DNA of 24,064 nucleotides, taken from positions 1-24,064 of the IMG/VR virus record IMGVR_UViG_3300037963_000082; one strand, 5' to 3'. Origin of the DNA: a virus. The notes beneath the pieces are model-generated. The model searched no databases. It had not been told where the DNA came from and worked only from the letters and a program-made list of their open reading frames with translations. The position numbers were made by a program, and so were the translations under genes. The stretch's first letter is position 1, and the number at the start of each line of letters is the position of its first letter. Shown here one piece after another: positions 1,467-6,726 of the stretch.

Positions 1467-1495
1467 CCGATATAGGAAACAAACTACCCTGTCAA
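1467..1495 (-). promoter_or_regulatory. sigma-70-like promoter for the 1434-to-left unit
   Basis: On the minus strand, TTGACA (1495-1490) is followed after 17 bases by TATCGG (1472-1467), then about 32 bases to the start codon of the first gene, with AAGGAG between. A perfect -35 box with consensus spacing supports a promoter. The -10 is imperfect; TATATC two bases nearer is an alternative. The TTGACAGGGT stretch recurs in the divergent region at 2196-2211, so it may also be an operator. Confidence 0.55.
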
Positions 1496-1592: not shown

Positions 1593-1850
1593 CTAAGCTA
1601 CTTCGTAAGGTGTCCTCAGTTTTACCAAAGCCTGTTTGTGTCTGTCAACCCACAAACGACATTCATTTTCACTTTTTCCGATATAGATTGTAACAAGTCG
1701 TAAGTAATCTACGCAGTCTTTTTTCTTTACCGTATCCCTGTTTGTCTCACCAATGCGAACAGATGATGCTGGTGTATTGACAGTCCACCTATCATCATAA
1801 TCACGTCTGACAATTTCCAATTCAAGTTTTGGGGTTTTCAATGATTCCAT
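1593..1850 (-). CDS. hypothetical protein (85 aa)
   Basis: An unrecognised basic protein with mixed beta and helical character. The ATG at 1850 has a GAGGA site and overlaps the end of the RHH gene by 29 bp. It is the last gene before the palindrome and terminator at 1498-1580. No motif that I recognise. Confidence 0.6.
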   Translation of the reverse strand: MESLKTPKLELEIVRRDYDDRWTVNTPASSVRIGETNRDTVKKKDCVDYLRLVTIYIGKSENECRLWVDRHKQALVKLRTPYEVA

Positions 1851-2034
1851 GTTCTTCCTCGTAAGCTTCGATATATATGTCCAGTGCTTCTCTAATTAGA
1901 TCGGCTACTGCAACTTGTTCGAGTGCTTTCTTTTGCATTTGATGTGCAAGGTAAGCAAGTTTGTCAAACTGCTCTTCCTTCATTAACAAATTGTAAGTCT
2001 TGGTGGGTTCAAGTATCTTGTTTGGTCTTGGCAT
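1822..2034 (-). CDS. probable ribbon-helix-helix DNA-binding protein (70 aa)
   Basis: A 70-residue protein with the shape of a ribbon-helix-helix (CopG/Arc-like) repressor. There is a short basic N-terminus, a candidate beta strand (TYNLLM), a first helix starting EEQFDKLAYLAHQ and a second helix VADLIREALDIYIE. The Leu-Ile-Arg-Glu-Ala-Leu pattern in the second helix is typical of the family. The frame opens at 2043, but ATG 2034 has AAGGA eight bases upstream and is preferred. Its position one gene away from the divergent control region suggests it may regulate that region. The fold is inferred by eye; no structure check was possible. Confidence 0.55.
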   Translation of the reverse strand: MPRPNKILEPTKTYNLLMKEEQFDKLAYLAHQMQKKALEQVAVADLIREALDIYIEAYEEEHGIIENPKT

Positions 2035-2158
2035 CCCGCGCATCCTTCTTTGATAGTTTATCTAGGTTATCTTTTTTCCTATTGGGGATAACTTGTTTTT
2101 GGTATTTCTTATCCCTTAATAGTTTTGCTATGGGGTTGATTTTATTATGTACTTTCAT
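2009..2158 (-). CDS. small basic protein (49 aa), first gene of leftward unit
   Basis: A 49-residue, strongly Lys/Arg/Asp-rich protein with no hydrophobic core, likely helical or disordered and possibly nucleic-acid binding. The frame extends to 2221, but ATG 2158 follows an AAAGGG site, and the longer version would cover the promoter region. It overlaps the RHH gene by 26 bp. Function unknown. Confidence 0.5.
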   Translation of the reverse strand: MKVHNKINPIAKLLRDKKYQKQVIPNRKKDNLDKLSKKDARDAKTKQDT

Positions 2159-2265
2159 AGTGGGGTTTCCCTTTAGGGTTAGGTTACGTAATAGGTAACA
2201 CACCCTGTCAATAGCCGTCAACTAAAAAACGTGGTTGACAGGATTTTATTTGGTGTGTTATCGAT
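2159..2265. promoter_or_regulatory. divergent control region between leftward early genes and rightward replication genes
   Basis: This 107-bp gap separates the two divergent operons. It holds TAACACACCCTGTCAA (2196-2211) and its inverted counterpart split in two, TTGACAG (2235-2241) and GGTGTGTTA (2252-2260), with ten extra bases in between. A second minus-strand TTGACGG lies at 2221-2215, exactly ten bases from the minus-strand TTGACAG. There is an 8-bp palindrome TTACGTAA (2184-2191) and the inverted repeat GTTAC/GTAAC (2183-2187, 2195-2199). Together they look like overlapping promoters and operators for both directions. Confidence 0.55.
2235..2264 (+). promoter_or_regulatory. sigma-70-like promoter of the replication operon
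   Basis: TTGACA (2235-2240) is followed after 18 bases by TATCGA (2259-2264). The expected start of transcription, six to eight bases further, falls on or next to the primase start codons at 2266 and 2272, so the message would have essentially no leader. The same TTGACAGG...TATCG arrangement is found on the minus strand at 1467-1495. Confidence 0.5.
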
Positions 2266-3078
2266 ATGGGCATGAAATCACCAACTTGGCTACAAAGTTA
2301 CGTAGAATCATTGGACATTCAGCCGTTAGGTCGTTACCGATCTGACTGTCCTGTCTGTGCCAGAAAGAATACGTTTAGCGTAAGTGATGACGGACTGCAA
2401 AGACTGTGGTATTGTTTTCACGCTGACTGTAACGTATCTGGACGGACAGGTGTCACACTGACTAAAGAGTTTGCAAAACATGCTCTTTCTAGGTCACAGG
2501 CTAATGCGCCTGTTCCCCGTACTAGTAACACTTACGAATTGCCGGACACTTTTGTTAGTCTTTCCCGTAACTTAGATGCAGAACTTTATGTTCGATCTGT
2601 ACATGCGTACGATGCGTACTTGTCAGGTCGTGCAGACATTCGTTATGATTTCAAAAGAAACCGTGTCGTCTTTATTGTCAAGGATGGCAATAAGGTCGTT
2701 GATGCGGTAGGTAGAGCAATGGATGGAAGGAGTCCAAAATGGTATCGATATGGAAATAGTAGACATCCTTTTGTTTCTGGCAATGGAGAACGTGGTGCCT
2801 GTGTTGTCGAAGATGCTGCTAGTGCTTGCAGTGTTAGCGGTGTTGTCGCGGGGGTGGGAATCTTAGGCACGAATTTGCTAGAAGAACACATACAACATCT
2901 ATCTAAATACAACAGGGTATTTGTTGCACTTGACAAGGATGCAACTGACAAGGCAATTGACATGGTAAAAACCCTGTGTAGAATAGTTCCAACCAAACTC
3001 ATGGTATTATCCCGTGACTTTAAGAACATGACAAAGGACGAAAGAGATGACTACCTACGAAACTACATCGATAGATAA
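2266..3078 (+). CDS. DNA primase (zinc-binding + TOPRIM), separate from helicase
   Basis: Makes RNA primers for lagging-strand synthesis. The N-terminal zinc-binding part has C28-x2-C31 and C50/C55 with a nearby His, as in the T7 gp4 primase zinc motif. A TOPRIM domain follows at roughly residues 175-250, with the catalytic acid E182 (VVEDAASA) and the metal-binding pair D223/D225 (ALDKDATDK). At 270 aa it corresponds to the primase half of T7 gp4. The helicase is a separate gene that overlaps its end by 32 bp, so the two are probably translated together and act as a complex. Starts at 2266 or 2272 are possible; neither has a Shine-Dalgarno site. Confidence 0.88.
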   Translation: MGMKSPTWLQSYVESLDIQPLGRYRSDCPVCARKNTFSVSDDGLQRLWYCFHADCNVSGRTGVTLTKEFAKHALSRSQANAPVPRTSNTYELPDTFVSLSRNLDAELYVRSVHAYDAYLSGRADIRYDFKRNRVVFIVKDGNKVVDAVGRAMDGRSPKWYRYGNSRHPFVSGNGERGACVVEDAASACSVSGVVAGVGILGTNLLEEHIQHLSKYNRVFVALDKDATDKAIDMVKTLCRIVPTKLMVLSRDFKNMTKDERDDYLRNYIDR

Positions 3079-4276: not shown

Positions 4277-4644
4277 TGGCAAAGCACGGTGATGTCAGAG
4301 AGGATGGGATGGTCTTCTGGGGCATGTCTGGTAAGCATGAAGACTGGAGAAGCCCAGATAAATTCTATGCCGCCAAAAAAAGAAACCATGATCATAAAAC
4401 ACGTTTGAAAAAAATACGACGACGATGGCTCAACATGTACAAGGTGCGTAAGGGGTGTAGTCTATGTGGTTACAGCGAAAACTCTGCCGCTCTTCAGTTT
4501 GATCACCTAGACCCATCTACTAAAGTTCGTGACGTATCTAATATGATAACTTTGAAATTGAAACGTTTGATGGATGAGGTTAGAAAGTGTAGGGTTCTTT
4601 GTGCAAACTGTCACATGATACACACGTTTGGAGAGGACAAATGA
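4276..4644 (+). CDS. HNH endonuclease
   Basis: A 122-residue zinc-type HNH nuclease. C61-x2-C64 and C109-x2-C112 form the zinc site. The HNH core is D76-H77 (QFDHLD), N111 and H113/H116 (CANCHMIHT). The N-terminal 55 residues are very basic and suited to DNA binding. Such genes in phage replication modules are often free-standing homing endonucleases; nicking in recombination is another possibility. TTG at 4273 is in frame, but ATG 4276 is preferred and overlaps the helicase stop by one base. The end overlaps the exonuclease start as ATGA, so it is well integrated in the operon and not a fresh insertion. Confidence 0.85.
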   Translation: MAKHGDVREDGMVFWGMSGKHEDWRSPDKFYAAKKRNHDHKTRLKKIRRRWLNMYKVRKGCSLCGYSENSAALQFDHLDPSTKVRDVSNMITLKLKRLMDEVRKCRVLCANCHMIHTFGEDK

Positions 4645-5225
4645 ACGTACTGACCTTCGATGTGGAAACAACCCACATACAGAAAGAAACGGGTGGGACA
4701 ACAGCACTGCCATACTTTGGCAATCGTCTTGTATCTATTGGGTACAAGCGTTTGTTATCCCCTCACGTACACTATCACTGCTACTATCATGCAGACAGGC
4801 AACCCCACGACTTTGCACCTGAGTTGTTTCAGGAAGCCCTTGACGAGGCTGACATGATTGTGGGACATAACATCAAGTTTGATCTATCGTGGATAAGAGA
4901 ATGTGGTTTCGTTTTTGATGGAGAAGTGTATGATACAATGGTTGCGGAATATGTTTTGGCAAAGGCCCAGCGTTGGCCTCTTGGACTTGCTGCTGTTGCA
5001 GAAAAGTATGACGTTACCCAAAAGGAGAAAGACCTTGTGGCACCGTATCTTAAAGAGGGCAAGACCTTCTACGACATACCGTGGGAGATAGTAGAGGAGT
5101 ACGGTAAGGCTGACGTACTTGCTACAGAAGAAATAGCACTAAAACAGCTTGATGCCTTTGGCACTACATTTGAGGAATTATACAATGCAACGGACTTTAC
5201 TACCGACACTACGGCTGTCGCTTGA
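4641..5225 (+). CDS. DnaQ-type 3'-5' proofreading exonuclease
   Basis: This is the proofreading domain normally fused to phage family A polymerases, here a separate 194-residue gene. ExoI is FDVETT (D7, E9), ExoII is GHNIKFD (N77, D81) and ExoIII is EYGKAD (Y154, D158), so all four metal-binding acids are present. ATG 4641 overlaps the HNH stop and follows GAGAGGA. The 3' end overlaps the polymerase gene by 41 bp in another frame, and the last 15 or so residues are not domain-like. It presumably assembles with the polymerase encoded next. Confidence 0.87.
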   Translation: MNVLTFDVETTHIQKETGGTTALPYFGNRLVSIGYKRLLSPHVHYHCYYHADRQPHDFAPELFQEALDEADMIVGHNIKFDLSWIRECGFVFDGEVYDTMVAEYVLAKAQRWPLGLAAVAEKYDVTQKEKDLVAPYLKEGKTFYDIPWEIVEEYGKADVLATEEIALKQLDAFGTTFEELYNATDFTTDTTAVA

Positions 5226-6726
5226 AATGACAGAGACGCTCACGGAGATAGAGCGTAACGGTTTAAAAATAAACCTAGATACACTAAAACAAATTGAGAC
5301 AGAGTTTCAAACAGAACTGGATGAACTAGAGATACGTCTGAATGAAATGGCGCGGGAAGCAATGGGGGATACTCCCATCAATCTTGCCAGCCCAGATGAC
5401 CGTAGTATTCTCCTTTACTCCCGTAAGGTGAAGGACAAGAAAGAATGGTCACGCATGTTCAATCTGGGTCACGAGATGCGTGGTGCCACCATGAAACCAA
5501 AGCAGCGTGTGCGGATGAAAAGAAGCGTGTTTGCTTCCACAGTTCGCCGCATGACTGATGTAGTTAAAAAGACTGTTGGTAGTAGATGTGCAGGATGTCT
5601 TGGTCATGGTAGAGTTCGCCCTGTAAATAAGAATGGACAACCAAGTAAAGTTTTACGTGTTTGTAAATTTTGTAAAGGTGTTGGTGTAATCTACACACCC
5701 ACACGAGAGGTTGCCGGATTCAAACTGGTGCCTCGTGACACGTTTGATACTGCCGCTGCTGGATTTAAGACTGATAAAACTACGTTAGAAGATAGGTCAA
5801 TAGAACTATCCGGGCAAGCAAAGGAGTTTGCCACCGCATACATACGTTACAATGCCTTACGTACTTACCTAAATACTTTTGTAGAGGGAATGAAAAACAA
5901 TGTTGATGCAAATGGTATCATCCATCCAGAGTTTATGCAGTGTGTTACAGCGACGGGTCGCCTTTCGAGCCGCAATCCTAACTTTCAGAATATGCCACGA
6001 GGTAATACCTTTGCAATACGAAAGGTTGTTGAGAGTCGGTTCGATGGTGGCTACATACTTGAAGGGGATTATTCGCAATTAGAATTTAGGGTAGCTGGTT
6101 TCCTTGCAAAGGATAGTCAAGCATACATAGACGTAAAGGATGGCACAGATGTTCACCAATATACTGCAGATATTATCGGATGCAGCCGACAAGAAGCAAA
6201 GGCACATACCTTCAAGCCTCTATACGGCGGCACCACCGGAACAGAAGCCCAACAACGCTACTACAGAGCCTTTAAGGAAAAGTATGAAGGGGTATCCATC
6301 TGGCACGACAAACTCCAGCGAGAAGCCGTTAAAACGAAGCAGATCACCCTTCCAAGTGGTAGGCAGTATGCTTTTCCCTCTGCGCGGTGGACAGAGTGGG
6401 GTACAGCCACAAACCGCACGGCGATATGTAATTACCCTGTTCAGGGTTTTGCTACTGCTGACCTTCTTCCTACTGCTCTTGTTCGTTTGAGCAAGATGAT
6501 GAGAGTAAGAAAATTAAATTCTGTTATTTGCAATACTGTACACGATTCAATAGTGTTGGATGTACACCCTGATGAAAAAGACGTTTGTATCAAGCTGTTA
6601 GAATACGCAATGTTATCATTACCTACAGAGAGCGTGAACCGATATGGAATTGAATATGACATGCCTGTCGGAATAGAATTAAAGATAGGAAAGAATTGGC
6701 TTGACACTGAGGTCGTTAATCTGTAA
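5185..6726 (+). CDS. family A DNA polymerase with DnaJ-like zinc insertion
   Basis: Replicative polymerase of 513 aa lacking its own exonuclease domain. The N-terminal helices cover about residues 1-120. A DnaJ-type double motif follows, C135-x2-C138-x-G-x-G and C160-x2-C163-x-G-x-G. Then come the thumb and palm with motif A GDYSQLEFRV (D295), motif B Rx3Kx7YG (R335, K339, Y347) and motif C VHDSIVL (H453, D454). All catalytic residues are intact. The frame is open from 5149, but ATG 5185 has AGGA eight bases before it and starts at the expected helix, so I choose it. The zinc insertion is the known mark of HMO-2011-type phages. Confidence 0.9.
   Translation: MQRTLLPTLRLSLEMTETLTEIERNGLKINLDTLKQIETEFQTELDELEIRLNEMAREAMGDTPINLASPDDRSILLYSRKVKDKKEWSRMFNLGHEMRGATMKPKQRVRMKRSVFASTVRRMTDVVKKTVGSRCAGCLGHGRVRPVNKNGQPSKVLRVCKFCKGVGVIYTPTREVAGFKLVPRDTFDTAAAGFKTDKTTLEDRSIELSGQAKEFATAYIRYNALRTYLNTFVEGMKNNVDANGIIHPEFMQCVTATGRLSSRNPNFQNMPRGNTFAIRKVVESRFDGGYILEGDYSQLEFRVAGFLAKDSQAYIDVKDGTDVHQYTADIIGCSRQEAKAHTFKPLYGGTTGTEAQQRYYRAFKEKYEGVSIWHDKLQREAVKTKQITLPSGRQYAFPSARWTEWGTATNRTAICNYPVQGFATADLLPTALVRLSKMMRVRKLNSVICNTVHDSIVLDVHPDEKDVCIKLLEYAMLSLPTESVNRYGIEYDMPVGIELKIGKNWLDTEVVNL

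Follow-up and report, generated by a model that had tools for sequence, protein, structure and literature searches.

Conserved putative divergent promoters and a candidate regulator site in a predicted control region of uncultured marine phages

Divergent early promoters and small RHH repressors (Arc/Mnt) are found in the immI region of phage P22. The RelB-relO system likewise has an RHH autorepressor, and here TG-type hexad repeats lie on one face of the helix by the repressor's own promoter; its half-sites measure 12 bp and cannot be moved apart, not even by a full turn (PMC2812701). In the alphaproteobacterium Caulobacter, leaderless mRNAs are common: 375 mRNAs start at the A of the ATG and are translated as well as leadered ones (PMC4117421). 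HMO-2011-type phages carry a primase, helicase and polymerase module related to that of the DNA studied here (PMC9038755).

Here we report the analysis of a 24,064-nt stretch of viral DNA (positions 1 to 24,064 of IMG/VR record IMGVR_UViG_3300037963_000082), referred to as the window. We propose, with a probability of about 80%, that a compact control region with divergent, back-to-back promoters and candidate regulator sites occupies positions ~2166-2272 (Table 1). Comparison of related sequences provides the box positions, the fixed spacings and the gene arrangement. The locus resembles P22 immI in that a small RHH-like gene lies by divergent promoters and a putative repressor site falls between -35 and -10; it differs in that the window has no identified antirepressor or immunity gene and that the RHH class is predicted from sequence. 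An integrase was not found in the window. With RelB-relO it shares the one-face arrangement of repeats beside the candidate repressor's own promoter, but its boxes double as predicted -35 elements and sit 10 or 11 bp apart. The predicted transcription start at the A of an ATG recalls Caulobacter; unlike the Caulobacter leaderless genes, the gene concerned is a phage primase gene that is leadered in sister phages.

The label 'HMO-2011-type', which an earlier note on this DNA had applied to its relatives, proved to be loose. Primases of the isolates are only about 30-38% identical, their genes follow other plus-strand genes, and both the divergent promoter array and the RHH-like gene are absent from the isolates examined. 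In the window and its relatives the polymerase is spread over two overlapping frames, compared with one frame in HMO-2011 and HTVC033P; the window therefore does not carry the isolate-like replication module with its single-frame polymerase. In every relative checked, as at window positions 4641-5225 and 5149-6726, the exonuclease and polymerase parts lie in overlapping frames, which may represent either separate genes or a programmed frameshift. A promoter analysis of HMO-2011-type phages was not found in the literature searched, and the RHH-like protein had no match in any phage record.

Table 1. Features of the predicted control region and its neighbouring genes (window coordinates).
Feature	Position	Strand	Remarks
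RHH-like 70-aa protein, candidate autoregulator	1822-2034	-	synteny and weak profile matches
49-aa basic protein (INPIAK...), first gene of leftward operon	2009-2158	-	conserved in 77 loci
CCC-N4-GGG dyad	2169-2178	.	just downstream of predicted leftward start
-10 box TACCTA, predicted leftward promoter	2192-2197	-	spacer 18, TG upstream
GGTGTGTTA, left arm: left spacer end and -10 box start	2196-2204	-	varies among close relatives
O box, TTGACA	2206-2211	-	one helical turn inside left spacer; putative regulator site
Predicted -35 box M, TTGACG	2216-2221	-	TA at spacer 17 or 18 in 41/41
Predicted -35 box R, TTGACA	2235-2240	+	TA at spacer 17/18 in relatives
GGTGTGTTA, right arm: right spacer end and -10 box start	2252-2260	+	only in window's close clade
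-10 box TATCGA, predicted rightward promoter	2259-2264	+	spacer 18; TA positions conserved
DNA primase, TOPRIM type	2272-3078	+	PHROG 47, E 3e-21

Geometry of the divergent array

Relatives were drawn from IMG/VR using the primase as query; a second, alignment-based scan returned mostly the same contigs. Dereplication left 56 upstream regions, 41 of which have a divergent pair of TTGAC boxes, with primase identities from 100% down to 51%. On the minus strand, the left arm of the array (TTGACGGCTATTGACAGGGTGTGTTACC) contains two TTGAC boxes 10 bp apart: O, which adjoins the left GGTGTGTTA, and M, which lies farther away; the box of the right arm is R. Because M and R were both required for the selection of loci, their conservation is partly by construction, and because the loci are homologous, the counts are not independent. 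The spacing between box and TA was not a selection criterion.

The spacer between R and the next TA is 17 in 40/41 loci and 18 in one (window clade); for M it is 17 in 24 loci and 18 in the other 17. A separate dereplication (n=33) gave 31 loci with spacer 17 and 2 with spacer 18 for R, 16 and 17 loci, respectively, for M, and none with TA at 17 or 18 after O; the frequency of TA at other spacers is about 5%. Where a relative has just one leftward box, its spacer is 17 (L077, L203, L205, L209, L217, L219), and in four others O is degenerate and M is a perfect TTGACA (L175, L252, L253, L178). The fixed distance of the -10 TA from M and the position of the lone leftward boxes argue for M as the left -35 box. 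On both strands of all 41 loci, a TTGACA-like -35 is combined with a TA-starting -10 at a distance within the 16-18 bp expected of sigma70-type promoters, and M and R are accordingly predicted to be the -35 boxes of a divergent pair of such promoters. In the rightward promoter a TG precedes the -10 by one base, an arrangement known from extended -10 promoters. An E. coli-style promoter scan listed neither promoter, because both -10 boxes (TATCGA, TACCTA) are weak. As judged from sequence comparison, many uncultured marine phages share this conserved divergent layout.

Three TTGAC repeats adjoining replication genes, and a GC skew that changes sign at the array, might also be expected of a replication origin, with iterons by the primase gene and the promoters secondary. 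This is very unlikely: the skew flips wherever the gene strand flips, also near 12.5 kb, the spacing of the boxes is governed by promoter rules, and the gap between M and R is not constant (13 bp in the window, 13-16 among the relatives).

The earlier note had described the array as an inverted pair of bipartite elements, TTGACAG plus GGTGTGTTA, in which one copy is split by ten additional bases. The blocks were correctly placed (TAACACACCCTGTCAA at 2196-2211, TTGACAG at 2235-2241, GGTGTGTTA at 2252-2260), and a perfect 8-bp inverted repeat (CCTGTCAA/TTGACAGG) is present. The note had, however, paired the left GGTGTGTTA with O and missed the TTGACG on the minus strand at 2221-2216, which is M. 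Once M is used, the arms are equally spaced, with 17 bases from the first base of the box to GGTGTGTTA on the left (2221 to 2204) and on the right (2235 to 2252), and the single pattern TTGAC-N18/19-TA matches both arms as 26-mers (TTGACGGCTATTGACAGGGTGTGTTA and TTGACAGGATTTTATTTGGTGTGTTA). The ten 'additional' bases are explained by the distance of 10 bp between O and M.

The match between the GGTGTGTTA copies is by itself weak evidence, because similar inverted pairs arise by chance; a few 9-bp inverted pairs at such closeness are expected in the window from a rough calculation by hand (24,000 x ~45 x 4^-9). With up to one mismatch, GGTGTGTTA occurs 10 times in the window (7.4 expected), and TTGACAG occurs 13 times (5.1 expected), mostly within genes; the 16-base joined form has no second window copy with fewer than three mismatches. 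Each GGTGTGTTA block comprises the end of the spacer and the start of the -10 box of one predicted promoter (TGTTATCGA and TGTTACCTA); the likeness of the two promoters in these parts is limited to the window's clade. In the upstream regions of relatives outside L001-L009, the arms are dissimilar at the GGTGTGTTA positions; within this group, the left and right copies vary mostly independently (e.g. L003, L004, L008), and the sole parallel change of both is that in L007. Facing bipartite operators, one of them stretched by a helical turn to suit a flexible dimeric regulator, would account for the presence of both blocks in both window arms, but the equal arm spacing via M and the separate variation of GGTGTGTTA copies that are common to the arms in the nearest relatives only make this reading highly improbable. 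In the alignment of relatives that the earlier note had called for, the TTGAC blocks were conserved and are thereby strongly supported at the sequence level, whereas neither the ten-base difference nor the GGTGTGTTA block was conserved.

The O box, the dyad and the RHH-like protein

The importance that the earlier note attached to one helical turn was confirmed in another form: the two left TTGAC boxes are 10 bp apart in 24/41 loci and 11 bp apart in 6/41, with no other spacing among these 30, and O is absent from the remaining 11. The bases between O and M vary freely among the relatives, and the one-turn offset places both boxes on one face of the helix. The combination TTGAC-N5-TTGACA is carried by 5/10 large relative records, exactly once per genome. 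From its position and spacing, O is interpreted as a site at which a regulator binds, the conserved RHH-like protein being the probable candidate.

Alternatively, O could serve as the -35 box of another leftward promoter (TTGACA-15/16-TAnnTA) that overlaps the first, in which case tandem promoters would lie 10 bp apart. About half of the relatives (17/28) do have a TA 15 or 16 bases past O, and the window has TACGTA at a suitable place, but spacers of 15-16 are suboptimal and O is retained without any such -10 in ten loci (L011, L029, L035, L036, L039, L045, L051, L069, L071, L076). We consider tandem promoters unlikely and, on account of these ten loci, prefer a regulator site.

Direct repeats of CTGTCA resemble Pho boxes, in which two CTGTCAT repeats have an 11-bp period. 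Such repeats are present in the region, where CTGTCAA-N3-CCGTCAA on the plus strand could be read as a PhoB site that senses phosphate starvation. Their period is, however, not 11 bp but 10 bp, both in the window and across 24/30 loci, M coincides with a -35 box at a fixed distance from its -10, and the rightward -10 lies too far downstream of the site, all of which makes a Pho box scarcely credible.

The candidate ligand of O is encoded by a gene that adjoins the region in every relative with enough upstream sequence and is present in one copy per genome in 11/11 records. Seven of the 21 members of this RHH-like family match Pfam RHH_3, below the cut-off, and 11/21 match PHROG 876 ('transcriptional repressor'; best E 0.0012). 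The best PDB match, which is weak (E 0.71), is to ORF56, an RHH protein. The AlphaFold2 monomer consists of one long helix (mean pLDDT 73) and gave no match in a PDB fold search. On the basis of these weak profile matches, the 70-aa protein is taken as a likely, though putative, member of the RHH class. Its strand residues and the presence or absence of O showed no consistent pattern across relatives.

The 49-aa basic protein encoded by the first gene of the leftward operon had no Pfam or PHROG match; it may resemble the ribosome-rescue factor ArfA. Just past the predicted leftward start, a CCC-N4-GGG dyad occurs at a constant distance from M (37-43 nt) in 35/42 relatives (0.1 expected by composition); it is possibly an operator, a leader hairpin or a Shine-Dalgarno element. 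In L231, other sequence lies between the array and the primase gene, and the array remains with the RHH operon. The same is observed in L216, where the extra sequence contains a small gene that has a Shine-Dalgarno-like sequence of its own. A further promoter-like element, TTGACA-17-TA (TTGACAGGGTAGTTTGTTTCCTATA), is located at window positions 1471-1495 (-), upstream of the ORF at 1264-1431.

A predicted leaderless primase mRNA

The primase gene starts at ATG 2272 (MKSP...) and not at ATG 2266, because the relatives have an MKSP-like start at this place and the upstream ATG of L008 and L009 is out of frame. In 15/41 loci, including the window, the -10 is separated from the primase ATG by exactly 7 nt, and in all 15 a pyrimidine precedes the A of the ATG, so that transcription should start at this A. 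In the other 26 loci this distance is 20-39 nt, and most of the intervening stretches contain a Shine-Dalgarno-like sequence; distances of 8-19 nt do not occur among the 41. The primase mRNA is therefore predicted to be leaderless in the 15 loci (window positions 2259-2272), where the start codon lies at the predicted transcription start without a Shine-Dalgarno sequence. The leaders of many leadered relatives (L267, L260, L255 and similar) contain an extra TTGACA by the Shine-Dalgarno region.

A tree of the relatives requires four changes between the leaderless and the leadered state, with deep branches that are poorly supported, and the leaderless state may have had a single origin. We regard it as an even bet that the primase gene has switched repeatedly, under one conserved divergent promoter, between leadered initiation and leaderless initiation, the latter with the transcription start locked on the A of the AUG.

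Proposed mode of control and its significance

The suggestion of the earlier note that a control region with two promoters separates the replication operon from the oppositely directed early operon agrees with the fixed -10 spacings and the conserved gene arrangement. Both sigma70-type promoters are presumably read by host RNA polymerase. A search for a single-subunit RNA polymerase gave no match, which is not evidence of absence, as the control was also without a match. The rightward promoter (TTGACA-18-TATCGA) would serve the primase-helicase-polymerase operon, with a predicted start at the A of ATG 2272, and the leftward promoter (TTGACG-18-TACCTA) would serve the small-gene operon that includes the RHH-like protein, with a predicted start at ~2184-2185 (-). 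RNA polymerase covers about -55 to +20 of a promoter. With -35 boxes only 13 bp apart, both promoters should therefore not be occupied at once, and such mutually exclusive occupancy would allow the region to act as a choice point. O, and perhaps also the CCC-N4-GGG dyad, would be regulator sites, most likely for the RHH-like protein, which may repress its own operon and thereby tilt the balance between early and replication genes.

For a group of uncultured marine phages, this study yields a map of the early control region that is precise and open to testing; it comprises two predicted promoters, an extra box one turn away, a dyad and a candidate regulator. The primase gene offers a clean comparative case of leaderless versus leadered translation of one gene and, if the predicted switching is true, a natural experiment on the manner of, and the reasons for, leaderless translation of a replication gene in phages.
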